Below are positions 10,182 through 50,478 of a stretch of 50,478 nt of DNA, piece after piece. This DNA comes from Bacillus sp. ISL-55. Its GTDB lineage: Bacteria > Bacillota > Bacilli > Bacillales > Cytobacillaceae. The translations under genes and the position numbers were made by a program. The notes beneath the pieces are model-generated. The model saw only the letters and a program-made list of their open reading frames with translations. It was not told the DNA's origin and ran no database searches. Location of the stretch: contig NZ_JAGGQU010000030.1 in the NCBI RefSeq assembly GCF_018613155.1, positions 1 through 50,478 of the forward strand, read 5' to 3'. Within the stretch, counting starts at the first letter, position 1; each line of letters starts with the position of its first letter.

Positions 10182-10388
10182 AGTGTTTAATGTGCCCGTA
10201 AGAAAGCGGAATTGCAGTTAAAGGTCACATAAAAGTGGTTAATGTGCCCTTAAGGAAGCGGAATTGCAGTTAAAGGTCACATAAAAGTGTTTAATGTGCC
10301 CTTAAGGAAGCAGAATTGCAGTTAAAGGTCACATAAAAGCAATTAATGTGCCCGTAAAGATTCGGGAACGCAAACAAAGGTCACATAA
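10182..10388. repeat. 52-bp tandem array R1 (4 units) between purF and purM
   Basis: TTAATGTGCCC begins at 10187, 10239, 10291 and 10343, an exact 52-bp period. Each unit also carries GTCACATAA near its end. Units 1-3 are nearly identical, including the middle (GGAATTGCAGTTAAA); unit 4 keeps both cores but has a different middle. Cores from adjoining units form an inverted pair CACAT-N11-ATGTG. The array starts at the purF stop and occupies most of the 270-bp gap before purM, so it should be transcribed with the operon. The same core family recurs at 50365-50478. Confidence 0.95.
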
Positions 10389-10451
10389 TTTTTAAAGGTA
10401 GCGTCTACGAAAAGAGGCTAAGGAAAAACAGCCAAATCGGAGGTAGTGAAC

Positions 10452-11495
10452 ATGGCAAATGCGTATAAGCAGGCTGGGGTGGATATTGAGGCCGGGTACG
10501 AGTCGGTCGAGCGAATTAAAAAGCATGTGCAGCGGACGGTCAGGCCTGGTGTGATGGGTGCATTAGGCGGTTTCGGCGGGATGTTCAACCTTTCCAGCCT
10601 TGGACTGAAGGAGCCGGTGCTTGTTTCAGGTACGGATGGCGTCGGCACGAAGCTGATGCTGGCATTCATGATGGACCGGCATGATACAATCGGGATAGAT
10701 GCGGTCGCGATGTGCGTGAATGACATCGTTGTCCAGGGAGCGGAGCCTTTGTATTTCCTTGACTATATTGCCTGCGGAAAAGCAGTGCCGGAAAGAATCG
10801 AAGCGATTGTCAAAGGCATTGCCGATGGCTGCGAGCAGGCCGGCTGCGCCCTTGTCGGCGGTGAAACGGCGGAAATGCCAGGGATGTACTCTTTGGAAGA
10901 ATATGATTTGGCTGGTTTTTCGGTCGGTGCCTGTGAAAAAGCGGAAATCATTACAGGCAAGCAAATCAAGGAAGGCGATGTGTTGATCGGGCTTGCGTCA
11001 AGCGGAATCCACAGCAATGGCTACTCACTTGTGCGCAAGGTGTTTATCGAACAGGCTGGCTGGGAGCTTGACCGGTATGTCGATGAGTTTGGCTGTACAC
11101 TTGGAGAAGAACTGCTTAAGCCAACCCGTATTTATGTAAAATCGGTGCTTGCCGCAATGAAGCAATTCGAGCTTAAAGGGCTGGCCCACATTACAGGCGG
11201 CGGTTTTATTGAAAACATTCCTCGGATGCTGCCGGAAGGACTTGGCGCAAAAATCGAAGAGGGCAGCTGGGAAATCCCGCAGGTGTTCAAGATGATTGAA
11301 TCCCTTGGCGAAATTGAACGCCAGGATATGTACAATATCTTCAATATGGGGATTGGCATGGTAGCGGCTGTTGATGCAGAAATAGCTCATGAAGTTGTGG
11401 CGTTTTTAAACGAAAATGGAGAGCAGGCTGCTATAATCGGCACAGTTACTAGTACTGAAGGAATACAGATGAAAATGGCTGGTGAAGAGCTATGA
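10452..11495 (+). CDS. purM: AIR synthetase, PurM
   Basis: PurM closes the imidazole ring, converting FGAM to AIR with ATP. The 347-residue length is standard. Visible motifs include GVDIEAGYE near the start, [17 protein letters not shown] near 60, [11 protein letters not shown] near 140 and [13 protein letters not shown] near 245. I chose ATG 10452 because GGAGGT at 10439-10444 is seven bases upstream; a GTG at 10446 is too close to it. It follows the R1 array and overlaps purN by four bases. Confidence 0.97.
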
Positions 11496-12094
11496 AAAAA
11501 ATAGCTGTATTCGCGTCGGGGAGCGGGAGCAATTTTCAAGCGATTGCCGTAGCGGCACAGGCAGGTACCCTGAATGCTGAAATCTCGCTGCTTGTATGTG
11601 ATAAGCCCGGCGCATTTGCTGTCGACCGTGCTGATATGTTAAGCATACCTGCTCTGGTAATCAGCCCGAAAAGCTTTCCTACCAAGGCAGCGTATGAGGC
11701 AGAGATTTTACAAAAGCTGATCAGCCTTGATGTCGAAATGATTGTGCTTGCGGGATACATGCGTCTCATCGGACCGACATTGCTTGAAGCATATGAAGGA
11801 AAAATCGTGAACATCCACCCGTCACTGTTGCCATCGTTTCCTGGGAAGGATGCGATCGGCCAGGCGCTGGCAGCCGGAGTGGAGACTACAGGAGTGACGA
11901 TCCATTTCGTGGACGAAGGAATGGATACCGGCCCGATCATTGCGAGCGCTTCGGTAAAAGTCGAAGCTGGCGAAACAAGGGAGTCAATTCAGAAGAAAAT
12001 ACAGCGGATTGAACACAGCCTGTATCCAGACGTTTTGGAGGAGCTGTTGAACGGAGAAGAGGAGGCAGTACAATGGGAAAAAAGCGTGCACTAA
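11492..12094 (+). CDS. purN: GAR formyltransferase, PurN
   Basis: PurN transfers a formyl group from 10-formyltetrahydrofolate to GAR. The 200-residue protein shows the N-terminal [11 protein letters not shown], the folate-site segment [15 protein letters not shown] with the catalytic Asn-His pair near 108, and [17 protein letters not shown]. Its ATG overlaps the purM stop (ATGA) and its end overlaps purH by 22 bases. Confidence 0.97.
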
Positions 12095-13611
12095 TCAGTG
12101 TTTCAAATAAAGAAGGAATTGTTGAGTTTGCGAAGGAGCTTACCGAGCTTGGATTTGAAATCGTCTCGACTGGCGGCACAAAAAATGCGCTCAAGGAAGG
12201 TGGCGTTCCTGTCATCGGGATCAGCGATGTGACTGGTTTTCCGGAAATCCTTGAAGGCCGAGTGAAGACGCTGCACCCTAAAATTCACGGCGGCTTGCTT
12301 GCGAAGTATGATGATCCTTCCCATCAGGCTCAGCTGGCTGAAAATGAAATCGAGCAAATCGAGCTTGTCTGTGTCAACTTGTATCCTTTTAAAGAAACAA
12401 TTTCAAAGCCTGGCGTGACAGCGGAAGATGCGATTGAAAACATCGACATCGGCGGTCCGGCGATGCTGCGTGCATCAGCAAAAAATCACCAATACATAAC
12501 AGTGCTCGTTGACCCTGCAGATTATCAGCAGGTGATTGAAGAGTACAAGAACGAGAAGGGAACTACTCTGGAAACCCGCCGCCGCCTTGCTGCGAAGGTG
12601 TTCCGCCACACGGCTGCGTATGATTCATTGATTTCTGAGTACATGACAAACCTTGCTGGCGAGGAACAGCCGGAAAAAATGACGGTGACTTACGAACTGA
12701 AGCAAAGCTTGCGCTACGGTGAAAATCCGCATCAGAAGGCTGCTTTTTACCAGAAGCCGCTTGGATCGGCCTTTTCAGTGGCGGCAGCGGAACAGCTTCA
12801 CGGGAAAGAGCTTTCCTATAACAATATCAATGATGCCAATGCGGCATTGCAGATTGTAAAAGAATTCACTGAACCGGCAGCGGTTGCGGTTAAGCATATG
12901 AACCCTTGCGGAGTTGGCAGCGGCAAGGACATTTTTGATGCTTTCGGAAAGGCATTCGAAGCGGATCCAGTTTCTATTTTTGGCGGAATCATTGCCTTAA
13001 ATCGCGAGGTAGATGGGGAGACTGCGCGCAAGCTTTATGAAATCTTCCTTGAAATCATCATTGCTCCTTCTTTTAGCGACGAAGCTCTGGAAATTTTAAC
13101 GGCGAAAAAGAATCTTCGGTTATTGAAGGTGTCGTTCGATGGTGAGGCTGCGAAGGAGGCTACTTTGTCCTCTATTGAGGGCGGATTGCTTGTTCAGGAA
13201 CAGGATGCATACGGATTTGACGATGCGGAAATCTCTGTACCGACAAAGCGTGAGCCAACAGAGGCAGAGTGGGAGGCTTTGAAGCTTGGCTGGAAGGTTG
13301 TTAAGCATGTTAAGTCCAACGCGATTGTCGTGGCGAATAAAGATATGACCTTAGGAATCGGTGCCGGCCAGATGAACCGGGTTGGCGCGGCAAAAATTGC
13401 TTTGGAACAGGCTGGTGCGAAAGCGGAAGGAGCCGCGCTTGCATCTGATGCATTCTTTCCAATGGATGACACCGTCGAAACGGCAGCGAAGGCTGGAATC
13501 ACTGCGATCATTCAGCCAGGCGGATCCGTCCGCGATGAGGATTCAATCAAGAAGGCTGATGAATATGGCATTGCGATGGTGTTTACAGGCGTAAGACATT
13601 TTAAGCATTAA
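12073..13611 (+). CDS. purH: Bifunctional AICAR formyltransferase / IMP cyclohydrolase, PurH
   Basis: PurH performs the last two steps to IMP. The 512-residue protein has an N-terminal methylglyoxal-synthase-like cyclohydrolase domain (about 1-195, with STGGTKNAL and [13 protein letters not shown]) and a C-terminal formyltransferase domain (about 200-512) with the Lys-His pair in [12 protein letters not shown] near 275. GGAGG at 12061-12065 serves the ATG, which lies inside the end of purN. It is followed by purD after 78 bp. Confidence 0.97.
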
Positions 13612-15043
<1,432 letters not shown>

Positions 15044-15068
15044 AAAATCATCTCCTTTAGTTTAGTTG

Positions 15069-15096
15069 AAGCCCCCGGTTAAATGGGGGCTTTTAT
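15069..15096 (+). terminator. Terminator of the pur operon
   Basis: GCCCCC (15071-15076) pairs with GGGGGC (15085-15090) with flanking AA/TT pairs, followed by TTTTAT. It lies 117 bp after purD, beyond the antisense small gene, and is the first good plus-strand terminator after the operon. Confidence 0.8.
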
Positions 15097-15106
15097 CTGA
15101 TTAAAT

Positions 15107-15379
15107 TTAACTTGGGTTATAAGGAATCCAGCCTTCTGAATCCCCATTTTCGGCATTCTGCTGTTCCATCATATCCTGGCCTTTTTCATAGGCAGCGGTC
15201 AACGGGCAATAGCGGACAATCCCTTCTCCGACTTTCATTGCGCCCAACATCGCTATGAAGATATAGGAATCCTTCCACGGCCGTTTCACCATTTTCGATG
15301 TCGACCAAGCCAGGATTGTCAGTCCTGCTGTAATCCTCACGAGTGCGTTGATGATTCCGATATTAGGTCGTACATTCAT
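15107..15379 (-). CDS. DUF2892 (YgaP-like) inner membrane protein
   Basis: This 90-residue protein starts MNVRPNIGIINALVRITAG, the hallmark of the YgaP-like transmembrane domain (DUF2892). It has two hydrophobic helices (about 9-27 and 39-60) and a CPLTAAY segment, where many relatives also carry a Cys-Pro. The C-terminal 25 residues are polar. In some proteins this domain is fused to rhodanese, suggesting a sulfur-related role, but nothing here confirms that. It is followed on the same strand by the EYxxD gene. Confidence 0.85.
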   Translation of the reverse strand: MNVRPNIGIINALVRITAGLTILAWSTSKMVKRPWKDSYIFIAMLGAMKVGEGIVRYCPLTAAYEKGQDMMEQQNAENGDSEGWIPYNPS

Positions 15380-15500
15380 ATCTCATCGCTCCTTACTCCA
15401 TTTTTACAGTTAATTTGAAATTCTTTAATGCGTTAAACAGTGAAATATGTTACGATAGTACAATAATGTAAGGGCTTTCTTTTTAAACACTTCGAGAAAT

Positions 15501-15796
15501 GTCCAGCTCCAGCGCCTAGCCCCTCGAGTCGCTTGTCTAGTGTCGCCTTCTAGAAACTCCGAAACTTCAACTCCGCCGGCAGAAGCAAAAAGCGCTTCTT
15601 TGTCGGAGTCTCCAGTTTCTGCGTTTCTGGACAGTCGGCTATACTTTTCTATTTCGGTCCGCCCAATGAAGTCAAAGAACGACTTCACTGGTCGGCCCTC
15701 CGAGGCACACTATGTGCTAGACCCGCCAGCCACAGGACGTGGCGTTATCGGCGGGCAGCGCTTGTCGGGGCTGATCAAGGCGCTTGCGCTTTTCGT
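15501..15796. repeat. Large structured intergenic repeat, long form (element A)
   Basis: The ends are complementary: CCAGCGCCTAGCCCC on the left pairs with GGGGCTGATCAAGGCGCT on the right. Inside are further hairpins: GAAGTC/GACTTC around 15670, and CCCGCC (15722-15727) with GGCGGG (15750-15755) enclosing GCCAC/GTGGC. Compared with element B at 22531-22701, this copy has about 110 extra bases (about 15540-15655) that themselves fold: AGAAACT (15552-15558) with AGTTTCT (15614-15620), ACTCCG with CGGAGT, AGAAGC with GCTTCT. I recall similar sequences in many Bacillaceae genomes but cannot name the family. It fills most of the 445-bp gap before yerA. Confidence 0.85.
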
Positions 15797-15824
15797 TTTA
15801 ACATAGAGAAAAGGGGAACATGGT

Positions 15825-17564
15825 ATGGAACAACGTTATCGATGGAAAAACAAACAATTGCGCGACCATGCTGCTGTTTTGGACGGCACCCTTTCACCGA
15901 CGGTCTTATTGAAGAATGCGACATATTTGAACCAGACATTCCGCAAGTGGATGACTGCGAACATTTGGATTTACAATGACAGGATTGTGTATGTTGGTGA
16001 AAACCTGCCTGAAAATACAAAGCAATGTGAAATGGTGGATTGCACCGGGATGAAGCTGGTGCCGGGCTATATTGAACCTCATGCCCACCCATTTCAACTT
16101 TATAATCCCCATTCTTTCGCTGCCTATGCATCGCAGACGGGGACGACGACGCTGATTAATGACAATATGGTGCTGGCTTTACAATTAGGAAAAAAGAAAG
16201 CGTTTTCTTTTATCAATGAGCTGAATGACAATCCGGTCACGATGTACTGGTGGTGCCGTTTTGATGCGCAGACTGAAATCCAGCATGAGGAAGAGGTATT
16301 CTCCAACAGCAATGTCAGGGCCTGGCTTGAGCATGAGAATGTCGTCCAGGGCGGGGAGCTGACATGCTGGCCGAAGCTGATGAATGGCGACGACATGATT
16401 CTTCATTGGATGCAGGAAACGAAGCGCCATCACAAGAAAATCGAGGGGCACTTCCCTGGTGCATCGGAAAAGACGCTCGCGAAAATGATGCTTTTCGGCG
16501 CGGACTGTGACCATGAGGCAATGACAGGTGAGGAAGTCCGCAGAAGGCTGATGCAGGGATATATGGTGTCATTGAGGCATTCATCGATCCGACCGGATTT
16601 GCCGAAGCTGCTGGATGAAATCCACGAACTGGATATTGCGGTGTACGACCGTTTCATGATGACGACAGATGGATCATCGACCGCTTTTTATGAAAATGGC
16701 GTGATGGATGAGCTGATTAGGATTGCAATTGAAAAAGGCGTTCCCGTCATCGATGCTTATAATATGGCAACAATCAACGTCGCGCGTTATTATAATTTCG
16801 AGCATTTGCACGGCAATATCGCAACAGGACGGGTAGCGAACATCAATATTTTAAGTGATGACATGAACCCGACACCTGTGTCTGTGCTCGCAAAAGGCCA
16901 GTGGGTGAAGCGTGATGGTGAAGCAATAGATGCAGCGAAAGAAATGGACTGGTCCGAAATGGGCTTTGAGCCGCTTAAATTGGACTGGGATCTGACGATG
17001 GATGATATGCAGTTCTCGATGCCATTCGGGATCAAGATGGAGAATTCGGTCATTACGAAGCCTTATTCGATTTCTATTGATGTGTCTGCCGAGGAATTAT
17101 CATCAAAGCATGATGAGTGCTTTTTCATGCTGATCGACCGTCATGGTAAATGGCGCATAAATACAATGCTGAAGGGCTTTGCGACGAATCTGCAGGGGCT
17201 GGCAAGCTCGTTTTCCAATACCGGCGATATTATTCTGATTGGTAAAAGTAAGCAGGATATGGTGGCTGCTTTCAACAGGATGAAGGAACTCGGCGGGGGG
17301 ATTGTTGCCTGTGAAAATGGTGTGCCGGTCAAGGAGATTCAATTGAGGCTGCAGGGTATCATGTCCAGCCATCCAGTGACAGAGCTGATGGCGGAGGAGA
17401 AGAAGCTGTTTGAATATTTAAAGGAAGCAGGCTATAAATTCGCCGATCCGATTTATTCATTATTATTCTTCAGTTCAACGCATTTGCCATATATCCGGAT
17501 CACACAAGAGGGCATCTATGATGTGATGAAAAAAACGGTACTCTTTCCAACGATAATGCGTTAA
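15825..17564 (+). CDS. yerA: Adenine deaminase-like amidohydrolase YerA
   Basis: This 579-residue protein is an amidohydrolase with the adenine deaminase domain plan: an N-terminal beta-sandwich piece, a metal-binding barrel with PGYIEPHAHPF near residue 85 and EGHFPGA near 210, and a C-terminal adenine deaminase domain (about 400-579). Adenine deaminase converts adenine to hypoxanthine with ammonia release. B. subtilis YerA is a paralogue of the proven enzyme AdeC, and its own substrate is not firmly settled as far as I know. AAGGGG at 15811-15816 supports ATG 15825. Its place after the pur operon suits a purine role but is not proof. Confidence 0.9.
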   Translation: MEQRYRWKNKQLRDHAAVLDGTLSPTVLLKNATYLNQTFRKWMTANIWIYNDRIVYVGENLPENTKQCEMVDCTGMKLVPGYIEPHAHPFQLYNPHSFAAYASQTGTTTLINDNMVLALQLGKKKAFSFINELNDNPVTMYWWCRFDAQTEIQHEEEVFSNSNVRAWLEHENVVQGGELTCWPKLMNGDDMILHWMQETKRHHKKIEGHFPGASEKTLAKMMLFGADCDHEAMTGEEVRRRLMQGYMVSLRHSSIRPDLPKLLDEIHELDIAVYDRFMMTTDGSSTAFYENGVMDELIRIAIEKGVPVIDAYNMATINVARYYNFEHLHGNIATGRVANINILSDDMNPTPVSVLAKGQWVKRDGEAIDAAKEMDWSEMGFEPLKLDWDLTMDDMQFSMPFGIKMENSVITKPYSISIDVSAEELSSKHDECFFMLIDRHGKWRINTMLKGFATNLQGLASSFSNTGDIILIGKSKQDMVAAFNRMKELGGGIVACENGVPVKEIQLRLQGIMSSHPVTELMAEEKKLFEYLKEAGYKFADPIYSLLFFSSTHLPYIRITQEGIYDVMKKTVLFPTIMR

Positions 17565-17628
17565 AATATAACAGTGCATCTAGAGATAGACAGCCATGAT
17601 CGAACTTGGAGATCAAGGGGTGGCGAAA

Positions 17629-18669
17629 ATGAGAAAAAAATGGATCGCTGTGCTGGCGGCCGCGATGGTGCTTACCGCCGGATGCAGCAGTAAAGAGACA
17701 GAGAAAAAAGAAGCAACAGAACATAAAGAAAAAGAGATTAAAGTAGACGAGGTTGTCGCTCCGGAGGAACTGCCGTATCAATTCCCGCTCACTGGAGTCG
17801 GGACTGCCGAGGAGAGCTCTGACCGGGCGGTGGCCGTGGTGGTCAATAACCATCCAAAGGCGCGTCCGCAATCCGGTCTTCACAAAGCTGACGTCGTTCA
17901 CGAGGTCCTTGCAGAAGGAGATGTTACAAGGTTCGTGGCGATTTTTCAAAGCGAACATCCTGAAAAAATAGGACCGGTCCGCAGTGCGAGGGAATACTTC
18001 ATTGACCTGGCATCCGGTTTTGACAGTTTTTTCATCGCCCATGGCTATAGCCCTGAAGCGAAAGAAATGCTCGAAAGCGGAGCGATCGATAACATCAACG
18101 GAATGCAATACGATGGAACACTGTTCAAAAGGGCCGATTTTCGGAAGGCACCTCATAATTCTTATATCACCTATAAGAATATTGTGAAGGGAGCGGAAAC
18201 GAGAGGCTACGCACTTGATGAAGCACCGGCTGCTGCAGTATTCTTGAGCAGTGAGGAAGCTGATGTCCTCGAAGGCACTCCGGCTGGGGAATTCATGGTA
18301 AAGTACGGTTCTCCGTCGTTCGATGCGATCTATGAATACGACGCTGATGAGCAGAAATACCACCGTTTTAATGGCAGTGAAGAAACCGTTGACCTTGAAA
18401 CGAAGGATCCTGTTCTGCTCGACAATATCCTTGTCGTACAAATGGACCATCAGGTAATTGATAGTGCAGGCCGCAGAGTCATCGATATGGAATCCGGTGG
18501 CAAGGGATACCTGTTCCAAAAGGGAAAAGTGAATGAGATACAATGGAAAAATGAAGCTGGCAGGATCATCCCCTACAAGGATGGGGCTAAAGCTGGTTTC
18601 GTTCCCGGGAAAACATGGATCAACATTGTCCCATCAATCAGCGATGTCTCATTCGACTCTCAACAATAA
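17629..18669 (+). CDS. yerB: YerB, DUF3048 lipoprotein
   Basis: The start at ATG 17629 behind AAGGGG (17615-17620) gives a 346-residue protein with a lipoprotein signal: charged MRKKW, a hydrophobic stretch and lipobox LTAG-Cys19. A charged linker (about 22-45) follows, then the two DUF3048 regions with VVVNNHPKARPQSGL near 80, FVAIFQSEHPEKIGPVRSAR near 110 and RKAPHNSY near 180. It is predicted to be anchored on the outer face of the membrane. The function is not established. It lies 64 bp after yerA and is followed by yerC, as in B. subtilis. Confidence 0.9.
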   Translation: MRKKWIAVLAAAMVLTAGCSSKETEKKEATEHKEKEIKVDEVVAPEELPYQFPLTGVGTAEESSDRAVAVVVNNHPKARPQSGLHKADVVHEVLAEGDVTRFVAIFQSEHPEKIGPVRSAREYFIDLASGFDSFFIAHGYSPEAKEMLESGAIDNINGMQYDGTLFKRADFRKAPHNSYITYKNIVKGAETRGYALDEAPAAAVFLSSEEADVLEGTPAGEFMVKYGSPSFDAIYEYDADEQKYHRFNGSEETVDLETKDPVLLDNILVVQMDHQVIDSAGRRVIDMESGGKGYLFQKGKVNEIQWKNEAGRIIPYKDGAKAGFVPGKTWINIVPSISDVSFDSQQ

Positions 18670-18697
18670 AATTTGAGTGAATTAAGGGGTAGACTAT

Positions 18698-19012: not shown

Positions 19013-19025
19013 TTTTTAATGAGGG

Positions 19026-19055: not shown

Positions 19056-19093
19056 TGCGCTGAGTAATTGGAAAAAATCGCAGATAATTTCCA

Positions 19094-19208
19094 GTTCGCT
19101 ATAAAAAAGAAAATTCCGCTATAAAAAATTTTTTTTCGCTATAAAAAAGAAAATTTCGCTATAATAATTAGATTTTCGCTATAAAAAGGAATTTTTCGCT
19201 ATAAAAAA
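19094..19208. repeat. 20-bp tandem array R4 (6 units, core TTCGCTATAAAAA)
   Basis: The trinucleotide GCT of the core TTCGCTATAAAAA ends at 19100, 19120, 19140, 19160, 19180 and 19200, an exact 20-bp period. The linkers vary in A/T order (AGAAAA, TTTTTT, AATTAGA). A stray single copy of the flanking phrase TTTCCAGTTCGCTA recurs at about 19290-19302. The array lies between the yerC terminator and pcrB; no reading frame is supported in this gap. Confidence 0.95.
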
Positions 19209-19380
19209 TGAATTCTTCATTACATCAGCCTACTCTGATCGTAAAAGATTACCCAACTCAACAAAAAACTGCTGAAAATATTGGTGGATTTCCAGTTCGC
19301 TACTAAATTTTCATTTTCTCCAATGAAATTTCACGATTATTCACCGAACAATACGAGCATCGAGATTTATAACTTTTCTC

Positions 19381-19414: not shown

Positions 19415-19426
19415 CATGTTTCCTTT

Positions 19427-27314: not shown

Positions 27315-27396
27315 CTGAATATATCGACCACATTTCTGAATATATCGACCACTTTTTCGATTATATCGACCAGATTCACCAATATATCGACCAACT
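27315..27396. repeat. 21-bp tandem array R5 (4 units, core ATATATCGACCA)
   Basis: The hexamer CGACCA ends at 27330, 27351, 27372 and 27393, an exact 21-bp period. Core ATATATCGACCA is conserved apart from one base in unit 3; linkers (CATTTCTGA, CTTTTTCGA, GATTCACCA) vary. It lies in the 358-bp gap between the DinB-like gene (-) and pruA (+), about 90 bp upstream of the pruA promoter. No reading frame is supported there. Confidence 0.93.
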
Positions 27397-27488
27397 CTGT
27401 AACAAGCCCCAAAAGTCGGCCTAATTATAATATTGGCATAATAAAAATCAAGAAAATTCGCAATCCAAGACTTGCTAATACGTTGTCA

Positions 27489-29153: not shown

Positions 29154-29273
29154 ATTGCACGGTAGATACCACTAATTGCCCCGTTCTAGCTTCTAATTGC
29201 ACCGAAAAGAGGAAGAATTGCACGTTCAGACTACATAATTGGCACGCTTCATAAGCATAATTGCACCGTCTAC
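29154..29273. repeat. 21-bp tandem array R6 (6 units, core ATTGCACCG)
   Basis: ATTGCACCG or a close variant starts at 29154, 29175, 29196, 29217, 29238 and 29260, a 21-bp period with one 22-bp step. The linkers of about 12 bases are largely unrelated to each other, for example TAGATACCACTA against AAAAGAGGAAGA, apart from a tendency to end in TA. The array begins right after the pruA terminator and takes up much of the 308-bp gap before aceB. Confidence 0.93.
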
Positions 29274-39929: not shown

Positions 39930-39935
39930 CGATTG

Positions 39936-41601: not shown

Positions 41602-41606
41602 CATGT

Positions 41607-42716: not shown

Positions 42717-42746
42717 TTGGCAAATGGACAGAATTTAGTTTATGAT
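42717..42746 (+). promoter_or_regulatory. Sigma-A promoter of dagK
   Basis: TTGGCA (42717-42722) and TATGAT (42741-42746) are separated by 18 bp, about 100 bp before the start codon. Confidence 0.55.
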
Positions 42747-42847
42747 ATATCCGGTAGAATGGATATTGAGGTAATTGCCTGGATAGAAGTAATGAGCTAT
42801 GATGTAAATGGATGGAATAAAAAACCATATTAAGTAGGATGATGGGT

Positions 42848-43789
42848 ATGAAAAGAGCAAGAATTATTTACAATCCAACTTCAGGTCGTGAGGTTTTTAA
42901 AAAGCATCTTGCGGAGGTCTTGGTAAAGCTGGAGAATGCCGGCTATGAGACATCATGCCATGCAACGACAGGTGAGGGGGACGCGACGCAGGCTGCTAGA
43001 ATTGCGGTTGAGCGGCGCTATGACCTGGTGATTGCAGCTGGCGGAGATGGCACGATCAATGAAGTGGTCAATGGGATCGCCGAACAGGAGTACCGCCCGA
43101 GAATCGGCGTCATACCAGTCGGCACAACAAATGACTTTGCGCGCGCGCTTCATATCCCAAGGGATATCGATGCTGCGGTCGACATCATTGTTAAAGGCGA
43201 AACGATTCCGGTTGACGTAGGCCGAATTAACGATAGATATTTCATAAATATTGCTGGCGGCGGCAGGCTGACGGAGCTGACATATGAGGTGCCGAGCAAA
43301 CTCAAGACAATGCTGGGCCAGCTCGCTTATTATCTAAAAGGAATCGAAATGGTGCCGTCCATTCGGGCATCAGAAGTAAGCATTGAATATGATGGAAAGC
43401 TATACGAGGGCGAGGTCATGATGTTCCTTGTCGGGCTGACGAATTCTGTTGGCGGCTTTGAACGCCTGGCTCCAAACTCTTCGATCAATGATGGATTGTT
43501 TTCTTTATTGATTTTGAAAAAGACGAACCTGGCGGATTTTATCAGGATCGCTTCGCTCGCTGTCCGCGGTGAGCATATCAATGACCCGGGCGTCATTTAT
43601 ACGCAAGCAAACCGCATCAAAGTGCATTCTAAGGAAACTGTTCAATTGAACCTTGACGGCGAATACGGCGGAAATCTGCCAGCTGAATTCGAAAACCTGT
43701 TCAGGCACATTGAAGTCTACGTGCCGTTGGATGAAATCCGTCCAGAAGACCGGCCGGAGAATCTTGAATTGAATTTTAAAGCAGAATGA
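42848..43789 (+). CDS. dagK: Diacylglycerol kinase DagK (YerQ)
   Basis: DagK phosphorylates diacylglycerol released by lipoteichoic acid synthesis back to phosphatidic acid. The 313-residue soluble lipid kinase shows RIIYNPTSGRE near the N-terminus, the nucleotide-binding AAGGDGTINEVVNG near 62, GTTNDFARAL near 94 and a conserved C-terminal LNLDGEYGG. I choose ATG 48 bases into line 42801 (42848), giving MKRARIIYNP, because TAGGATG sits eight bases upstream; ATGs at 42839 and 42842 are too close to it. A strong terminator follows. Confidence 0.95.
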   Translation: MKRARIIYNPTSGREVFKKHLAEVLVKLENAGYETSCHATTGEGDATQAARIAVERRYDLVIAAGGDGTINEVVNGIAEQEYRPRIGVIPVGTTNDFARALHIPRDIDAAVDIIVKGETIPVDVGRINDRYFINIAGGGRLTELTYEVPSKLKTMLGQLAYYLKGIEMVPSIRASEVSIEYDGKLYEGEVMMFLVGLTNSVGGFERLAPNSSINDGLFSLLILKKTNLADFIRIASLAVRGEHINDPGVIYTQANRIKVHSKETVQLNLDGEYGGNLPAEFENLFRHIEVYVPLDEIRPEDRPENLELNFKAE

Positions 43790-43795
43790 TGAATG

Positions 43796-43823
43796 AACCA
43801 CTCCAAATTGGGGTGGTTTTTTT
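43796..43823 (+). terminator. Terminator after dagK
   Basis: AACCACTCC (43796-43804) pairs with GGGGTGGTT (43810-43818) with one G-T pair around AAATT, followed by seven T. Confidence 0.93.
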
Positions 43824-43871
43824 GTGATTTGAGATAGGGTATAGGAGGATATTACAGATGGTGTTGCTTTG

Positions 43872-44500
43872 GGGAAAACCACGAGGACAGGCCGGGGTTT
43901 TGTCTGAATCTGGTGTGACTTCGGACAAAACTACGAGGACAGGCCGGGATTTTGTCAGAAGTTGGTGTGACTTCGGACAAAACGGAGAGGAGAAGCTGAG
44001 ATTTTGTCTGAAGATGGTGTGACTTCGGACAAAACGGAGAGGAGAATCTGTGACTTTGTCTGAAGGTGGTGTGACTTCGGACAAAACGGAGAGGAGCAGC
44101 TGAGATTTTGTCTGAAGTTGGTGTGACTTCGGACAAAACCAGGGGGGAGAAGCTGAGATTTTGTCTGAAGGTGGTGTAACTTCGGACAAAACGGAGAGAA
44201 GAAGCTGTGACTTTGTCTGAAGCTGGTGTGACTTCGGACAAAACCAGGAGGAGAAGCTGAGATTTTGTCCGAACATGGTGTGACTTCGGACAAAACGGTG
44301 AGGAGCAGCTGTGATTTTGTCTGAAGGTGGTGTGACTTCGGACAAAAGGGAGAGAAGAATCTGAGAATTTGTCTGAAGTTGGTGTGACTTCGGACAAAAC
44401 CAGGGGGGCAGGCTGAGATTTTGTCCGAACATGGTGTGACTTCGGACAAAACCACGAGGACAGACTGGGGTTTTGTCTGAACCTGACATGACTTCGGATG
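43872..44500. repeat. 52-bp tandem array R3 (12 units) of hairpins
   Basis: The phrase ACTTCGGAC recurs twelve times. Its CTTCGG begins at 43919, 43971, 44023, 44075, 44127, 44180, 44232, 44284, 44336, 44388, 44440 and 44492: all steps are 52 bp except one of 53, and the last unit is degraded. Most units hold an inverted repeat TTTTGTCTGAA ... TTCGGACAAAA around a loop containing GGTGTGAC, then a purine-rich linker such as CGGAGAGGAGAAGCTGAGA. The array lies between the dagK terminator and pncA in an 861-bp gap with no supported gene. The minus strand lacks stop codons in all three frames across most of the array, a by-product of its composition. Confidence 0.96.
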
Positions 44501-44650
44501 TAACGAAGAAGCAGGTTTCTCTGGTGTCCGTTTTGGAGGTAGTTTCCGAAAAACAATCAACTTTAATTCCCAGTCGATATGAAAAATTTGCCTGCAAATC
44601 ATATTTGGAAGAAAATAAAAGATAATAAGATAAAAGGATGTGGATACATA

Positions 44651-45202
44651 GTGGGGAACAAGGCGTTGATCAATATCGACTATACGTATGATTTCGTGGC
44701 GGATGATGGCCGGCTGACTTGCGGCGAGCCGGGACAGGCGATTGAAGAGAAGCTCGTCGGCATCACCAGGGATTTTATAAAAAATGGTGACTATGTTGTT
44801 TTCGCGATTGATGTCCATGATGAGGGCGATAAGTTCCATCCGGAGACGAAGCTGTATCCGCCTCATAATATCCGCGGTACGAAAGGCAGGGATTTGTTCG
44901 GTAGCCTGCAGGGAGTTTATGAAAAAAATAAGCATCTCGACCATGTGCATTTTATCGACAAAACGAGGTATTCGGCATTCGCCGGGACGGATCTTGAGAT
45001 CAAACTGCGCGAGCGGGGCATCACAGAAGTGCATCTCGTCGGTGTATGCACCGATATTTGCGTCCTTCATACGGCGGTTGATGCTTATAATAAGGGATTT
45101 AAGGTTATTGTGTATAGAGATGCGGTTGCTTCTTTTGATCAGGTGGGCCATGAATGGTCGCTCCGCCATTTTGAGAGCTCGATTGGCGCGGAGGTAAAGT
45201 AG
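44651..45202 (+). CDS. pncA: Nicotinamidase PncA
   Basis: PncA hydrolyses nicotinamide to nicotinate for NAD salvage (and activates pyrazinamide). The 183-residue cysteine hydrolase has the catalytic Asp in INIDYTYDF (Asp10), metal ligands in DVHDEGDKFHPE, the Lys in DKTRYSAFAGTDLE and the nucleophile Cys in GVCTDICVLHTA. GTG 44651 is chosen because it gives the same length as B. subtilis YueJ and has AAGGATG upstream; an ATG at 44579 adds 24 unrelated residues. pncB, which uses its product, lies 96 bp downstream. Confidence 0.93.
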   Translation: MGNKALINIDYTYDFVADDGRLTCGEPGQAIEEKLVGITRDFIKNGDYVVFAIDVHDEGDKFHPETKLYPPHNIRGTKGRDLFGSLQGVYEKNKHLDHVHFIDKTRYSAFAGTDLEIKLRERGITEVHLVGVCTDICVLHTAVDAYNKGFKVIVYRDAVASFDQVGHEWSLRHFESSIGAEVK

Positions 45203-45298
45203 CAGCAATTTCGCAAGACTTAGTGATGCGGATGTTGGCTTTCATTTGATCCGCAGACAAGTCAAGCGGTTCATGGCAGTATATTTGGAGGTTTTTTG

Positions 45299-46768
45299 AT
45301 GAGCACAAAATTCACAGACGATAGCTTAATGCTACACACGGACTTATACCAATTAAATATGATGGAAACGTACTGGCGTGATGGCGTTCATAATCGCCGA
45401 GCGGTGTTTGATTTATTTTTCCGCAAGCTTCCTTTCGGCAATGGCTATGCCGTTTTTGCCGGTCTTGAAAAAATCATCAATTATATCGAAAACTTCGGTT
45501 TTACAGAAGGTGATATTCAATACCTGCGGGAAGAAGGAAGTTTTGATGAGGATTTTCTTGCATTTTTAAAAGAAATGCGTTTTACAGGCACCATCCGTGC
45601 GATGCAGGAGGGTGAGATTGTTTTTGCTAATGAGCCGCTGGTCAGGGTCGATGCGCCACTTGCTGAAGCGCAGTTGATTGAAACGGCGCTCCTGAACATC
45701 GTCAATTACCAGACATTGATTGCGACGAAGGCTTCACGAATCAAGCAGGTCGTGAAAGATGAAATCGCGATGGAGTTTGGTACCCGCCGTGCGCACGAAA
45801 TGGATGCGGCTCTCTGGGGCACGCGCGCCGCTTATGTTGGAGGATTCGACTCCACCAGCAATGTGCGCGCAGGTAAATTGTTCGGCATCCCAATCTCAGG
45901 AACGCATGCTCACTCAATGGTTCAGGCTTACAGGGATGACTACACCGCTTTTAAAAAATACGCGGAAACGCACAGGGATTGCGTGTTCCTCGTCGATACG
46001 TATGATACGCTGAAATCTGGTGTGCCGAACGCGATTAAAGTGGCAAAGGAATTTGGCGATAAGATTAATTTTATTGGCATCCGTCTCGATAGCGGCGACC
46101 TTGCATACCTATCAAAGGAAGCTCGTAAAATGCTGGATGATGCTGGCTTTAAGGATGCGAAAATCGTAGCCTCAAGCGACCTGGACGAGTATACGATCAT
46201 GAACCTGAAAGCACAGGGTGCGAGAATCGATATTTGGGGAGTAGGAACCAAGCTGATCACCGCTTACGAACAGGCAGCTCTTGGTGCAGTTTATAAAATC
46301 GTTTCGGTTGAGAGGGAGGACGGAACAATGGAGGACACGATCAAGATCTCCTCCAATCCGGAAAAAGTAACGACCCCTGGCATTAAAAATGTATACAGAA
46401 TCATCAATAAAGCAACTAATCGCTCAGAGGGTGACTATATCACGCTTGAGAGTGAAAATCCGCAGCAGGAAAAGCGCTTGAAGATGTTCCACCCGGTTCA
46501 CACTTTCGTCAGTAAGTTCATCACTAATTTTGACGCTCGGGATTTACATCACGAAATCTTCAAAGATGGAAAATTAGTATACGAGCAGCCAAGCCTAGAT
46601 GAAGTCCGCAAGCATTCAAAATACTGCCTCGGCGTTCTTTGGGAAGAATACACACGGATGCTTAATCCAGAGGAATATCCCGTCGACCTCAGCCAGAAGT
46701 GCTGGGACAACAAAATGCAGAATATAAAAGAAGTAAAAGAGAAGGTCAAAGGGATGACCGGAGAATAA
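45299..46768 (+). CDS. pncB: Nicotinate phosphoribosyltransferase PncB
   Basis: PncB joins nicotinate to PRPP to give nicotinate mononucleotide with ATP hydrolysis. The 489-residue protein is the longer Firmicute form, with LHTDLYQLNMMETYW near the N-terminus, the active-site His region GTRRAHEMDAALWGTRAAYVGG near 162-183 in outline, GTHAHSMVQAY and IRLDSGDLAYLS near 262. GGAGG at 45287-45291 fits ATG 45299 (a TTG immediately precedes it). With pncA it forms a complete nicotinamide-to-NaMN salvage unit. Confidence 0.96.
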   Translation: MSTKFTDDSLMLHTDLYQLNMMETYWRDGVHNRRAVFDLFFRKLPFGNGYAVFAGLEKIINYIENFGFTEGDIQYLREEGSFDEDFLAFLKEMRFTGTIRAMQEGEIVFANEPLVRVDAPLAEAQLIETALLNIVNYQTLIATKASRIKQVVKDEIAMEFGTRRAHEMDAALWGTRAAYVGGFDSTSNVRAGKLFGIPISGTHAHSMVQAYRDDYTAFKKYAETHRDCVFLVDTYDTLKSGVPNAIKVAKEFGDKINFIGIRLDSGDLAYLSKEARKMLDDAGFKDAKIVASSDLDEYTIMNLKAQGARIDIWGVGTKLITAYEQAALGAVYKIVSVEREDGTMEDTIKISSNPEKVTTPGIKNVYRIINKATNRSEGDYITLESENPQQEKRLKMFHPVHTFVSKFITNFDARDLHHEIFKDGKLVYEQPSLDEVRKHSKYCLGVLWEEYTRMLNPEEYPVDLSQKCWDNKMQNIKEVKEKVKGMTGE

Positions 46769-46781
46769 TAATTCACAATGT

Positions 46782-46815
46782 GCTGCTTTCTTTAATCAGA
46801 AAGCAGCCTTTTTTA
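46782..46815 (+). terminator. Terminator after pncB
   Basis: GCTGCTTTCT (46782-46791) pairs perfectly with AGAAAGCAGC (46798-46807) around TTAATC, followed by C and six T. Confidence 0.94.
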
Positions 46816-46950
46816 TGGGCTTTAGCAGCCCGCTTTTAAAAAGTACTTAAATTATTTTGGTACTTCAACTAATTTCATATTTTTTCTAAAGGATTTCCCC
46901 TATGTGTAAAAGAATTATTAGGAAAGAATCTTTTCTAAGGATGTTGCCGT

Positions 46951-48024
46951 TTGAATGACCAGAGGATCTTCGTAGATTATGAACAGTTCATACCTAGGGA
47001 AACAGGCTTCATATTCAAATTTATTAAAAAAGACAACCAATTCATCCATACTTTTATCGAAGGCAAGCTCATAGAAAAGGTCGGTCTTTGCCCTGACAAA
47101 GTAACCGGGAAATCACTATGTGAATTTTTGCCGCCTGACCAGGCGATGCGCAAAGAGTTTTTTTACGAAAAGGCATGGAATGGGGAGCAGGTAAACTATG
47201 AAGGAAGTATTGGCGATGTGCACTATTTGGCAATTTTGAATCCTGTCATCCAAAACCGTCATACTATTGAGGTAATTGGGACAGCAATCGATATTACCAG
47301 CGAAAAAAACAGGGAGAAGCAAGTTCAGCAAATGGAGAAACTTTCTGTAGTGGGAGAACTTGCAGCAGGGATTGCCCACGAAATCAGGAATCCACTTACA
47401 TCCATGAAAGGCTTTGCTAAAATTGTCAAAGAAAGCGTTACGGATCAAAAGTTGATTCCGTACCTTGATATCATGCTGGATGAAATGGATCGGATCAATC
47501 AAATTGTCAATGAATTCATGTTCATAGCCAAACCTAATGAGAATGTTAATTTTCAAGATACAAATTTTAGCAAGCTGATCAGGGATTGCATCATCTTAAT
47601 GGAACCACAGGCTAACCTTAAAAGTATAAAAATGGATTATGAAATTGATAGAGAAATCATTTTGAATTGTGACCGGAACCAGATGAAGCAGGTGCTGATT
47701 AACCTGTTCCAGAATGCGATTGAGGCGACAGAGGACAATGGCCAACTTATCAGCGTCAGGCTTGATGAAGTGGGTAAGGAATCGGTCATGGTCACGGTTA
47801 TGGATAAAGGCTGCGGAATACCGGAGTCAAGGTTGAATCGCCTGTTTGAGCCTTTCTACTCCACGAAGGAAAAAGGGACAGGCCTGGGTTTGCTCACTTG
47901 CAAACGGATTATCGATCTTCATCAAGGAAGCATTGATATCGACAGCCAGCCTGGGGAAGGCACAACCATAGGTATCGTGCTGCCTCGGCATAAAAATGTA
48001 GAGACATTGTTGATCGCAGAATAG
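46951..48024 (+). CDS. PAS-domain sensor histidine kinase (sporulation-kinase-like)
   Basis: This 357-residue kinase has one PAS domain (about 10-120), a HisKA dimerisation domain with phospho-accepting His143 in AAGIAHEIRNPLTSMKGF, and a C-terminal ATPase domain with N box NLFQNAIEA, G1 DKGCGIP, F box FEPFYSTKEKGTG and G2 GTGLGL. It has no membrane segment, so it should be cytosolic. The kinase part resembles the KinA/KinE group that feeds the sporulation phosphorelay; no response regulator lies nearby, which suits an orphan phosphorelay kinase. The only usable in-frame start is TTG 46951, with AAGGA upstream; a lost N-terminal part cannot be excluded. Confidence 0.88.
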   Translation: MNDQRIFVDYEQFIPRETGFIFKFIKKDNQFIHTFIEGKLIEKVGLCPDKVTGKSLCEFLPPDQAMRKEFFYEKAWNGEQVNYEGSIGDVHYLAILNPVIQNRHTIEVIGTAIDITSEKNREKQVQQMEKLSVVGELAAGIAHEIRNPLTSMKGFAKIVKESVTDQKLIPYLDIMLDEMDRINQIVNEFMFIAKPNENVNFQDTNFSKLIRDCIILMEPQANLKSIKMDYEIDREIILNCDRNQMKQVLINLFQNAIEATEDNGQLISVRLDEVGKESVMVTVMDKGCGIPESRLNRLFEPFYSTKEKGTGLGLLTCKRIIDLHQGSIDIDSQPGEGTTIGIVLPRHKNVETLLIAE

Positions 48025-48028
48025 AAAG

Positions 48029-48063
48029 TGTCATGGTTCTTTTTGGAGCATGGCATTTTTTTT
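48029..48063 (+). terminator. Terminator after the kinase gene
   Basis: TGTCATG (48029-48035) pairs with CATGGCA (48049-48055) with one G-T pair across a 13-base loop, followed by eight T. Confidence 0.7.
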
Positions 48064-48152
48064 ATTGTCGTTCTACGGGGCTTATCTGTTAAAATGAAAG
48101 AGCAATCCTCTAAAATCCTCAACATTTTCTCACTGAAAGGAGCCACCTCACT

Positions 48153-50285
48153 ATGCTGCAAAAAGCCCAAGAATTATTGCAAAGTCATTTTGGATATTCC
48201 TCGTTCCGACTGGGGCAGGAGCAGGCGATTTTATCTGTGCTCGAAGGGAAAAATACCGTCTGCGTCATGCCGACTGGAGGCGGAAAATCGATTGTCTATC
48301 AAATCCCTGCGCTCGTGCTGCCTGGGACAACCATTGTCATTTCTCCGCTGATCTCCCTGATGAAGGACCAGGTCGATACGCTCACCCAGCTGGGCATTCC
48401 GGCAACATACATCAATAGCTCGCTGACTGCCGGTGAAGCTGCGGCCCGCATGGATGATGCCAGGAACGGAAAGTACAAGCTGTTGTACATCGCTCCAGAG
48501 CGGCTGGGATCCTGGGAGTTCATCGATGACCTGCAGGACATGGATATCCCTCTGATCGCCGTCGATGAAGCGCACTGTATTTCCCAATGGGGACATGATT
48601 TCCGTCCAAGCTATCTGCAGATTTCCGGCCTTGCTGACCGCCTGCCGCGAAAGCCGATTGTGCTTGCCTTGACGGCAACAGCAACACCTAAAGTACGTGA
48701 AGACATTTGCGCTTCGTTAAAAATAAACCCTGAGAATACGGTGATTACCGGGTTTGAGCGCAGCAACTTAAGTTTTTCTGTTGTCAAAGGTCAGGATCGC
48801 CAGGCGTACTTAAAGGATTTTATCAAAAAGAACGAAAAGGAAGCTGGCATCATTTATGCGGCGACAAGGAAAATCGTCGACCAGCTGTATGAATGGCTGC
48901 AGAAGGAAGGCTTCAATTCGGCCCGCTATCACGCAGGCATGAACGATGAAGACCGGAACCGCGAACAGGAGCGCTTTTTACAGGATGAAGCTTCTGTGAT
49001 GGTTGCAACTTCAGCATTCGGAATGGGCATCGATAAAAGTAACATCCGCTATGTACTGCATTTCCAGATGCCGAAGAATATGGAGAGTTACTATCAGGAG
49101 GCAGGCCGTGCCGGGCGTGACGGCTTGGACAGTGAATGTATCGTGTTATATTCGTCGCAGGATGTCCAGGTTCAGCGCTTTTTGATCGACCAGTCAGCTG
49201 ACCGAGAGCGAATCGCGCCTGAGCTCGAAAAATTGCAGCAAATGGTTGGCTACTGCCATACCGAAGAGTGCCTGCAATCCTATATCCTTCACTATTTTGG
49301 CGAAACAGAGACTGTGCGATGCGGACGCTGCGGCAATTGTACGGACTCTCGTGAGACGCAGGATGTCACGAAGGATGCGCAGATGGTCCTATCATGCATC
49401 ATCCGGATGGGACAGAAATACGGCAAGGCGATGACGGCCAATGTATTGACCGGCTCCCGTAATAAAAAGGTGCTAGAATTCCGCCTGGATAAATTGCCGA
49501 CTTATGGATTGATGAAGGACCGTAATGCCAAGCAAATCAATGACCTGATCGAGTTTCTGATTTCACAGGAGCTGATTGGCGTCGAGCACGGCACCTACCC
49601 GACGATTTATGTCCCGGAAAAGGGGAAGGATGTTTTGCTTGGCAAGACGAAGGTGTTCAGGAAGGAAGCCGTCCGGGTTAAGCAGGTTTCAAACGATGAT
49701 CCGTTATTTGAAGAGCTGCGCGAGTTGCGGAGGGACGTTGCCGCTGCGGAAAAGGTGCCGCCATTTATGATTTTCTCCGATTCCTCATTGAAGGATATGT
49801 GCCTGAAGCTGCCGCAGACCGATGCAGAGTTTCTCAATGTGGCTGGAGTGGGAGAGCACAAGCTGCAGAAGTATGGTGCGCCATTCATTCAGCGGATTAT
49901 CGAGTTCTGCGAGGCGCATCCGGAGCGTGAGCCTGTGATGAATGCCGTTGCGGAGCCGGCTAGAAAGCAGCCGAAAAAAACAGTCGGGGATTCCCATCTC
50001 GAAACGTACAAGCTGCATCAGGCGGGAAAGACAGTTGCTGAAATCTCTGCAAAGCGCGAGCTGGTGGACAGTACGGTTGAAAATCACCTGATCCAATGCA
50101 TCCAGCAGGGAATGGAAGTCGACTATGACTTGCTGATCCCAGCTGAGCATATTGAAGACCTCGAACGAGCCGTTGAAGAAGCCGGCCGCGACAGGCTTAA
50201 GCCAATCAAAGAGTTGCTCCCTGATGAGGTTAGCTATTTTATGATAAAGGCCTTCCTTTATAGGTCCAAGAAAAAAGTACACTAA
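48153..50285 (+). CDS. recQ: ATP-dependent DNA helicase RecQ
   Basis: RecQ is a 3'-5' superfamily 2 helicase for recombination and repair of stalled forks. The 710-residue protein has Walker A PTGGGKS (40-46), a DEAH box in VDEAHCISQWGHDFRPSY near 134, AGRAGRDGL motif VI near 320, the zinc-binding cysteines (CHTEEC, CGRCGNC) near 370-400, an RQC winged helix, an HRDC domain (about 520-600) and a C-terminal helix-turn-helix region (about 615-700, HQAGKTVAEISAKREL). The tail makes it longer than the roughly 590-residue B. subtilis RecQ. AAAGGAG lies before the ATG. A strong terminator follows. Confidence 0.95.
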   Translation: MLQKAQELLQSHFGYSSFRLGQEQAILSVLEGKNTVCVMPTGGGKSIVYQIPALVLPGTTIVISPLISLMKDQVDTLTQLGIPATYINSSLTAGEAAARMDDARNGKYKLLYIAPERLGSWEFIDDLQDMDIPLIAVDEAHCISQWGHDFRPSYLQISGLADRLPRKPIVLALTATATPKVREDICASLKINPENTVITGFERSNLSFSVVKGQDRQAYLKDFIKKNEKEAGIIYAATRKIVDQLYEWLQKEGFNSARYHAGMNDEDRNREQERFLQDEASVMVATSAFGMGIDKSNIRYVLHFQMPKNMESYYQEAGRAGRDGLDSECIVLYSSQDVQVQRFLIDQSADRERIAPELEKLQQMVGYCHTEECLQSYILHYFGETETVRCGRCGNCTDSRETQDVTKDAQMVLSCIIRMGQKYGKAMTANVLTGSRNKKVLEFRLDKLPTYGLMKDRNAKQINDLIEFLISQELIGVEHGTYPTIYVPEKGKDVLLGKTKVFRKEAVRVKQVSNDDPLFEELRELRRDVAAAEKVPPFMIFSDSSLKDMCLKLPQTDAEFLNVAGVGEHKLQKYGAPFIQRIIEFCEAHPEREPVMNAVAEPARKQPKKTVGDSHLETYKLHQAGKTVAEISAKRELVDSTVENHLIQCIQQGMEVDYDLLIPAEHIEDLERAVEEAGRDRLKPIKELLPDEVSYFMIKAFLYRSKKKVH

Positions 50286-50286
50286 A

Positions 50287-50321
50287 ACGAAGCCCGCGGG
50301 CTTCGTCTTTTCCTTTTTTAT
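50287..50321 (+). terminator. Terminator after recQ
   Basis: ACGAAGCCCG and CGGGCTTCGT (50287-50306) form a perfect palindrome able to fold with a CGCG loop, followed by CTTTTCCTTTTTT. Confidence 0.92.
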
Positions 50322-50364
50322 TTATCTTTTAAACAGAATTCATCTATATTTTCAACCAACAATC

Positions 50365-50478
50365 CTTATAAATGTGCCCATGCAAGGATAATCCTCGGGC
50401 TTAATGTCACATAAAAGGGATTAATGTTCCCTTAAAACGGTAATCCTCGAGCTTAACGTCACATAAAAGGGATTAATG
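50365..50478. repeat. 52-bp tandem array R2, cut by the window edge
   Basis: The core TTAATGTKCCC (first copy TAAATGTGCCC) starts at 50369, 50421 and 50473, an exact 52-bp period, with GTCACATAAAAGGGA before the second and third copies. It shares both cores with array R1 at 10182-10388, but its middle segment (AATCCTCGRGCTTAA) is unrelated to that of R1. It begins just after the recQ terminator and continues beyond the window. Confidence 0.93.

Follow-up and report, generated by a model that had tools for sequence, protein, structure and literature searches.

The DNA analysed here (the window) is the whole of contig C24, 50,478 bp in length, from the draft genome of Bacillus sp. ISL-55 (4.52 Mb in 69 contigs), and it carries six arrays of short tandem repeats with units of either 52 bp or 20–21 bp. 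The best named matches of the P5C dehydrogenase encoded in the window are from Bacillus sp. ISL-45 (99%) and Mesobacillus subterraneus DSM 13966 (98%), and because of these matches the strain is placed in the genus Mesobacillus. A sequence-only reading of the window had listed the six arrays as intergenic. All six are present, at slightly adjusted coordinates and in gaps between genes, with the correction that the first of them lies within the pur operon.

This array (positions 10180–10388; no strand was assigned to any of the three 52-bp arrays) is located in the purF-purM gap, directly 3′ of the purF stop codon, the identities of both genes being confirmed. It consists of four units of a sequence family designated G (TTAATGTG[CA]CC / GGTCACAT), with GTC-N19-GCC frames in register at 10224–10248, 10276–10300 and 10328–10352. 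The second 52-bp array (43856–44509), found 3′ of a diacylglycerol kinase gene, contains about 12.6 units of family A (TTTTGTCYGAA / TTCGGACAAAA), and the third (50365–50478), related to family G, has at least two units and is interrupted by the contig end. Core motifs had been described as mostly different between arrays; however, the three 52-bp arrays of the window have the frame GTC-N19-G[AC]C in common, and are therefore not unrelated. Besides the window end, two other contigs of this draft genome end inside 52-bp arrays (C39 at its start and C4 at its end), so that short-read assemblies of the genus may break there.

The remaining arrays, all read on the plus strand, belong to the 20/21-bp class. 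A palindromic head (TGGAAA ... TTTCC; 19067–19094), placed 3′ of the terminator-like hairpin of a yerC-type gene, is followed by six 20-bp units with the core TTCGCTATAAAAA (19095–19214). This array exists as first read, but it proved to belong to a dispersed element some 142 bp in length, of which it is a single copy and which is here termed the CGCTATAAA module. Immediately before the yerC-type gene lies an open reading frame (ORF; 17596–18669) for a 357-amino-acid protein that gave no NCBIfam match. Four 21-bp units with the core ATATATCGACCA (27317–27400) occupy the divergent gap upstream of the P5C dehydrogenase gene, and six units with the core TAATTGCAC, spaced by 21 bp (in one case 22 bp), lie between this gene and the malate synthase gene (29154–29267), the same array being present in 7 congeners. 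A record named Cytobacillus oceanisediminis 2691 strain DE0166, which may be misnamed, encodes a P5C dehydrogenase 97% identical to that of the window and has the same two flanking 21-bp arrays.

A search of the window against Rfam at the gathering threshold matched only a purine riboswitch (RF00167, 91 bits, 1699–1800) upstream of the purine operon; Rfam families were accordingly rejected as a source of the arrays. The literature search, which left most subscription journals outside its coverage, so that an older account may exist, found no description of such arrays, and a search by motif letters gave nothing related by title among the matches listed.

Quantised periods

The own-genome sample comprised 41 stretches (843 kb), i.e. 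the window and 40 others. A scan that counted the sites where identity at a given lag reached 65% or more found 4, 35 and 10 of them at lags 51, 52 and 53, respectively, and none at lags 43–45, 47–50 or 54–59. A core scan, in which three units had to share at least 8 identical columns at periods between 10 and 120, yielded 57 arrays, 13 with a period of 20–21 and 39 with a period of 51–53 (together 52/57); the five others had periods of 18, 36, 63, 84 and 104. When these 843 kb were shuffled once with a first-order Markov model, the core scan gave no arrays.

The own-genome contigs had been chosen after matching two of the families, and their density of 52-bp arrays (41 per 843 kb; 17,482 bp, or 2.1% of this picked sample) is therefore biased. 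For this reason, the scan was redone on 60 evenly spaced 20-kb stretches (1.2 Mb) of a complete congener genome, G009. This gave an unbiased density of 43 arrays of the 52-bp class (15,807 bp, about 1.3% of the sample), and of the 74 arrays detected in total, 66 had periods of 20, 21, 41, 52 or 53, the period of 41 being read as 20+21. The other eight had periods of 33, 36, 60 or 84, all of which are divisible by three; each of these arrays is crossed by one or more open frames, and four of them were read as wall-binding-type repeats. Two stretches of this genome (L355 and L357, 4.32–4.49 Mb) carry four 60-bp repeats with an open frame, which by eye correspond to 20-amino-acid repeats of the wall-binding type. 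In 20 stretches of another congener (G005), all 22 arrays had periods of 20, 21, 41, 52 or 53, and the same core scan detected no arrays in 150 kb of Escherichia coli K-12. The genome-wide period histogram, which would have spoken against two unit-length classes had it been broad, was thus not broad.

The two classes extend beyond the genus. The core scan was also applied to the surroundings of the P5C dehydrogenase gene in 80 named Bacillales loci (1.56 Mb), where it detected 29 arrays (16 at 20–21, 9 at 51–53 and 4 at other periods). When the hits of a four-unit scan are added to these, an array of any kind is present in 18 of the loci, a 20–21-bp array in 12 and a 51–53-bp array in 7. The loci with arrays include records named Cytobacillus, Neobacillus and Pallidibacillus. 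In Bacillus mediterraneensis (L083, 17512–18561), four 21-bp arrays with the core TACCGTAGATAAATTG lie within about 1 kb, and GTGCCTGACCCCC repeats are found 3′ of the P5C dehydrogenase gene. Bacillus fonticola (L119, 14940–15386) has about 22 near-alike 20-bp units (AATGCTCAGACTCAGAGAGG, 90% matches) without the variable linker found in other 20-bp arrays.

Anatomy of the two unit classes

The 99 arrays of the 52-bp class collected from three genomes were sorted by our own motif rules into 11 sequence families, with 9 arrays left unclassified. Nearly all families have a single period: 52 in families A (19/19), B (12/12), G (10/10) and H (8/8), 53 in family I (11/11) and 51 in family E (3/3). 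The unit had been pictured as a conserved core joined to a variable linker of constant length, a description that suits the 20/21-bp class; the 52-bp unit, however, is a motif followed by its inverted copy. With 9 or more matching letters out of 12 as the threshold, the two arms agree in 48 of 52 consensus units (41 of them from the own genome, the other 11 belonging to relatives), in 54 of 58 further units from G009 and G005, and in 8.6% of shuffled units.

Inspection of the 52 units by eye suggested a 25-bp frame, G[TG]C-N19-G[AC]C, present in 35 of them (the second most frequent distance occurs in 7, and shuffled units average 1.4 for each distance). Since it had been spotted in these units, the 58 unused ones provided a fair test, although they come from the same genus, share families and are thus not phylogenetically independent; the frame was found in 35 of the 58 (second most frequent distance, 7; average of shuffled units, 1.7). 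The letters inside the frame vary with the family (TTCGGAC, TATCGGAC, GACGGAC, ATGTGACC, TTAATGGAC and others). In 25 arrays, unit-to-unit identity peaks in two symmetric blocks, at about frame positions −5 to 9 and 16 to 30, which take in A/T tracts outside GTC and GAC and have a mean identity of 0.80, compared with 0.63 in the outer linkers. The block centres lie 21.3–22.1 bp apart and the next pair follows at 29.9–30.7 bp; the unit can therefore be described as an inverted pair of half-sites about two helical turns apart, successive pairs being separated by about three. The outer linkers of many 52-bp arrays are strongly purine-rich on one strand, and in 16 of 22 arrays this strand goes with the orientation of the adjacent gene, close to the background of 65%.

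Arrays of the 20/21-bp class are direct repeats of half-sites, with a core of 9–13 bp and a linker of near-constant length. The CGCTATAAA module has matches in 21/21 genus genomes, weak ones in G010, G012 and G017; in 172 other genomes of the family, where the best 4 candidates per genome were scored, only weak short matches were detected, in 9 genomes. The structure of 21 copies was examined (the window copy, 12 from the own genome, G000, and 8 from G020), all of them best matches to the window copy, a choice that favours look-alikes. In most copies the head reads TGGAAA...TTTCC and is followed by six units (15/21; the others have 3, 7, 7, 8, 9 and 10) with A/T-rich linkers. The spacing is exactly 20 bp in 104 of 110 intervals, corresponding to 10.0 bp per turn.

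Placement, conservation and turnover of the arrays

Gene orientation and ORFs were called by a greedy longest-ORF rule, for placement as well as for the mismatch test described below. In two genomes, 52-bp arrays are depleted from divergent gaps (3/77 versus a background of 217/775, p = 2e-7) and enriched in convergent gaps (26/77 versus 99/775, p = 1e-5). The same holds for 20/21-bp arrays (divergent 2/29, p = 0.01; convergent 11/29, p = 0.0008), and the arrays in divergent gaps include that at 27317 in the window. These counts leave out arrays at stretch edges or within ORFs (7 of the 52-bp and 5 of the 20/21-bp class). In tandem gaps of the two genomes, the 52-bp arrays lie at a median of 58 and 116 bp from the upstream stop codon and 149 and 125 bp from the downstream start.

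On the chromosome scale, multi-hit clusters of CGTGCAATTA and TATATCGACCA, two 21-bp families, lean towards the origin in five genomes each, with mean relative distances of 0.15–0.29 when the origin is corrected by means of purF (applied for CGTGCAATTA, not for TATATCGACCA) and 0.24–0.34 when the contig start is taken as origin. The 52-bp arrays are more spread in G009 (median 1.20 Mb, compared with 0.81 Mb for the 21-bp class; p = 0.011, a modest difference with the contig start as origin). ACTTCGGACA was also searched for, and no claim made here rests on the matches listed.

The 21-bp arrays bear a clear signature of constraint. Core identity between species exceeds linker identity in the orthologous arrays of the purF-purM gap (0.941 versus 0.617), the gap before malS (0.885 versus 0.721) and the gap behind dagK (0.933 versus 0.727). 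The 5, 7 and 7 species compared were selected for the same motif, and cores derived from a consensus favour conserved columns; as a control, the core mask was rotated, and it attained the observed difference at 0/113, 1/92 and 0/71 positions, respectively. In these arrays the spacing is preserved at 21 or 20–21 bp and many linkers can be traced from species to species, so the units are old and inherited. This constraint concerns the 21-bp class; units of the 52-bp class turn over.

Comparison of the same gaps across the genus revealed different array classes in one orthologous gap, and unit number also differs between species there. The dagK gap, readable in 17 of 20 genomes, by our reading holds 52-bp family A units in 7 (two degenerate) and 20/21-bp TATATTCCTTAA units in 8; in G019 degenerate 20/21-bp units are followed by 53-bp units of family C, and G012 has no array. 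The purF-purM gap of 20 genomes contains 52-bp family G units in 3, GTGCAATTA arrays in 7 (one degenerate), a TTACGCAATT array in 1, GGGAGA(A/T)T arrays in 3 and no array in 6. Before malS (16 readable genomes) there are 8 TAATTGCAC arrays, 3 of 52-bp family F, 1 relic and 4 gaps with none. On a tree of the flanking coding sequences these states appear in mixed order, and class switches were not counted because branches near the window's species are weakly supported. G006 and G007, which are close on this tree, have purF-purM gaps of 117 bp without an array and 262 bp with a GTGCAATTA array, respectively, and nearly alike dagK gaps.

Whole families also rise and fall between genomes. CGTGCAATTA has 27, 29 and 23 copies in G003, G009 and G005, and 3, 1, 2, 2 and 3 in G004, G012, G013, G017 and G019, all five of which are without a GTGCAATTA array in the purF-purM gap. 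The count of TYGGGAGAWT is 196 in G012, 61 in G014, 48 in G015 and 22–42 elsewhere (reversed control, 5–27), and in G012, G017 and G019 a family A query matched the coding flanks only, with 2–3 candidates per genome left unscored. Such a pattern would be expected if a trans-acting factor had been lost or altered, and the presence or absence of family A across the genus is the best clue to a putative binding protein.

Candidate explanations and known systems

That two unit lengths recur despite differing sequences suggests a hidden family of DNA-binding proteins, of which no description was found. We favour, at about even probability, the reading of the arrays as phased platforms of half-sites for related DNA-binding proteins at the 3′ ends of genes, the binding, the kinship of the proteins and their role being what we infer, whereas the geometry, the constraint on the 21-bp class, the placement and the turnover are what the data show. 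A half-site of about 9–14 bp would be recognized by a putative sequence-specific protein. In the 20/21-bp class, often some six like-oriented half-sites would follow one another at intervals of two helical turns, preceded in one family by a palindromic head, and in the 52-bp class inverted half-sites about 21–22 bp apart would recur as pairs after about 30–31 bp, giving 51, 52 or 53 according to the family. Several related proteins with different specificities, or a single line changing its specificity, could share one geometry while recognizing the various motif families. The likeliest task would be architectural: from behind genes, away from promoters and preferentially between converging genes, the bound array would insulate transcription units from read-through, converging transcription or supercoiling, in a manner comparable to that suggested for BIME-2 arrays (BIME, bacterial interspersed mosaic element).

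The suggestion that the arrays are phased protein-binding sites thus gains from the quantised periods, the conserved cores, half-sites about two and three turns apart and families that come and go. The accompanying idea that all cores face one side of the helix at 10.5 bp per turn is approximately right but not exact: the CGCTATAAA spacing is 20 and most families adhere strictly to 51, 52 or 53, which therefore looks more like the geometry of a protein than a generic rule of B-DNA. Copying from a template of fixed size found no support in the 21-bp class, in which linkers vary by unit and yet are traceable between species. A nucleoid organiser, also proposed at the outset, would be compatible with the lean of two 21-bp families towards the origin and with the position of the arrays at the ends of genes. 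A bolder version, which we hold more tentatively and consider somewhat improbable as a whole, is an undescribed site code of the Bacillaceae, in which paralogous or rapidly respecifying proteins would read at least a dozen half-site motifs in one two-turn geometry, arrays would be interchangeable within a gap, genomes would switch specificity in step, and proteins and sites would co-evolve as a chromosome-wide insulating or folding system. If a protein family does bind the arrays, this would add a new level of chromosome organisation to a large, much-studied bacterial family, along with a natural record of a DNA-binding specificity changing together with many of its sites.

Several observations weigh against the platforms. 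An attempt to name the binding protein gave no candidate. The exact frame is absent from 17 of 52 and 23 of 58 consensus units, the GAC element is missing from some 21-bp cores, and the period is not strictly fixed, family C having 52 in 4 arrays and 53 in the C-type array of G019. Single arrays are dispensable, the purF-purM gap being without one in 6 of 20 genomes, and the link between array and family is partial, since G006 and G011 also have no array in this gap and yet carry 11 and 10 CGTGCAATTA copies. The array inside the pur operon, where congeners have 21-bp arrays, argues against a strict roadblock to RNA polymerase, and the position behind genes may partly reflect tolerance rather than a function there. 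Moreover, of the 20 copies of the CGCTATAAA module that could be resolved with a crude open-frame rule, 17 have a head-side gene pointing to the module, a directionality that an RNA-level or insertion-targeting model would equally predict.

If transcribed, the arrays could fold into hairpins serving 3′-end stability, transcription termination or recognition by an RNA-binding protein; they do lie downstream of genes, and their dyads are inverted and foldable. However, mismatches in the dyads of 22 arrays between tandem genes, scored on the sense strand, were A.C in 60 cases and G.T in 31 (9 arrays leaning to A.C and 7 to G.T), i.e. with no excess of the G.U pairs that selection on RNA would favour, and the dyads are therefore read as DNA sites. 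RNA hairpins were rejected by this test, and, with purine orientation near its background and a riboswitch as the sole Rfam match, RNA-level elements in general are quite improbable. The families might instead mark chromosome domains, labelling the origin or other regions for segregation or folding as the parS, matS and SlmA sites do. The lean of CGTGCAATTA and TATATCGACCA towards the origin and the wider spread of the 52-bp arrays agree with this, but the even sample shows only a modest effect (Fisher p = 0.054 within 0.8 Mb), several per-genome tests fall short of significance (Kolmogorov–Smirnov p up to 0.15), related genomes are non-independent tests, and origin regions may simply retain old arrays better; domain markers are, in our estimation, distinctly unlikely. 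CRISPR-like and TIGR-like arrays are the model for a reading of cores as repeats and of linkers as acquired spacers, and a constant core with a variable linker of constant length has this appearance. The linkers, however, are short, A/T-rich in the CGCTATAAA module and, in three 21-bp arrays, traceable between species; thus they look like drifting sequence and not like unique spacers of foreign origin. Guide arrays were rejected on this ground and are extremely improbable; the Rfam search of the window matched no CRISPR family, and its scanned genes are mostly housekeeping, although no search was aimed at Cas, Tas or Nop-domain proteins and the linkers were not matched to phages.

Selfish palindromes, like repetitive extragenic palindromic (REP) sequences and BIMEs, would be copied by a transposase (a REP-associated tyrosine transposase, RAYT, or another), land behind genes and be amplified in tandem. 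In their alternating inverted motifs, their extragenic position 3′ of genes and their many copies the arrays resemble BIMEs (PMC2817692), and the CGCTATAAA module is dispersed with one architecture, the 60 nucleotides preceding its head having a predicted fold of −16 kcal/mol or lower in 12 of 21 copies. The Y1 transposase domain (PF01797), the sole transposase covered by the search, is present in 18 of 21 genus genomes, including the own genome, but gave no match in G016, G019 and G020, of which G016 and G020 are array-rich: the family A query, counted with its coding flanks, has 29 and 57 matches there (the best 15 of 17–66 first-look candidates were scored per genome). On either strand of the 52 consensus units, GTAG and CGTC tags occur in just 10 and 12, respectively. 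RAYT-driven REPINs were rejected on these two counts, and selfish palindromes of any kind, which leave the core constraint in orthologous 21-bp arrays and the same periods in unrelated sequences to be accounted for, are unlikely. A plasmid or phage source was rejected for the family A array, which matched neither 72,556 plasmid records nor phage collections, as was a plasmid source for the CGCTATAAA module, without a match among the same plasmid records. Neutral minisatellites, generated by replication slippage or hairpin-driven template switching, would suit the similarity of units within 52-bp arrays (lag identity mostly 0.7–0.9) and their varying number between species. Such repeats are free in period and unit sequence, whereas here the periods are quantised and the cores conserved, in the 21-bp class more so than the linkers; slippage gives no reason for 51–53 and 20–21 across unrelated sequences and genera, nor for six units in 15 of 21 CGCTATAAA modules (copies that were best matches to a six-unit query), and this origin is very improbable.

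Phased platforms for DNA-binding proteins, as favoured above, would resemble several known systems in part. Plasmid iterons are direct repeats of about 17–22 bp, roughly two helical turns, present in few copies per group and bound by an initiator. The 20/21-bp class shares the direct repetition and the two-turn spacing, whereas its arrays are chromosomal, dispersed, mostly behind genes and of several motif families, and the two arrays queried had no plasmid match. Chromosome organiser sites of the parS/matS type offer multiple sites per protein. The arrays likewise provide multiple sites, some families being biased to one chromosome region, but they are tandem with a fixed period, belong to many motif families and would be read by a protein that is still putative.

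Among interspersed repeats of the Bacillaceae, Bcr1, Bant-1 and Bhal-1 are described as stem-loop elements, Bcr1 being a single element of 147–167 bp classed with miniature inverted-repeat transposable elements (PMC2267715, PMC3733652). By description, the sequences themselves not having been compared, the tandem fixed-period units and many families seen here are set apart from Bcr1. REP/BIME-2 arrays, reported to bind gyrase, are likewise tandem, regularly spaced, alternating in orientation, extragenic and present in many copies per genome (PMC2817692). The 52-bp class has these palindromic, alternating extragenic units, while the direct 20/21-bp class does not, and neither the association with RAYT nor the GTAG/CGTC tags recur consistently. 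Unlike REP/BIME-2, the arrays described here comprise 11 families, most with a common frame and with periods of 51, 52 or 53, are abundant in genomes without a RAYT, and exchange with direct 20/21-bp arrays within one and the same gap.

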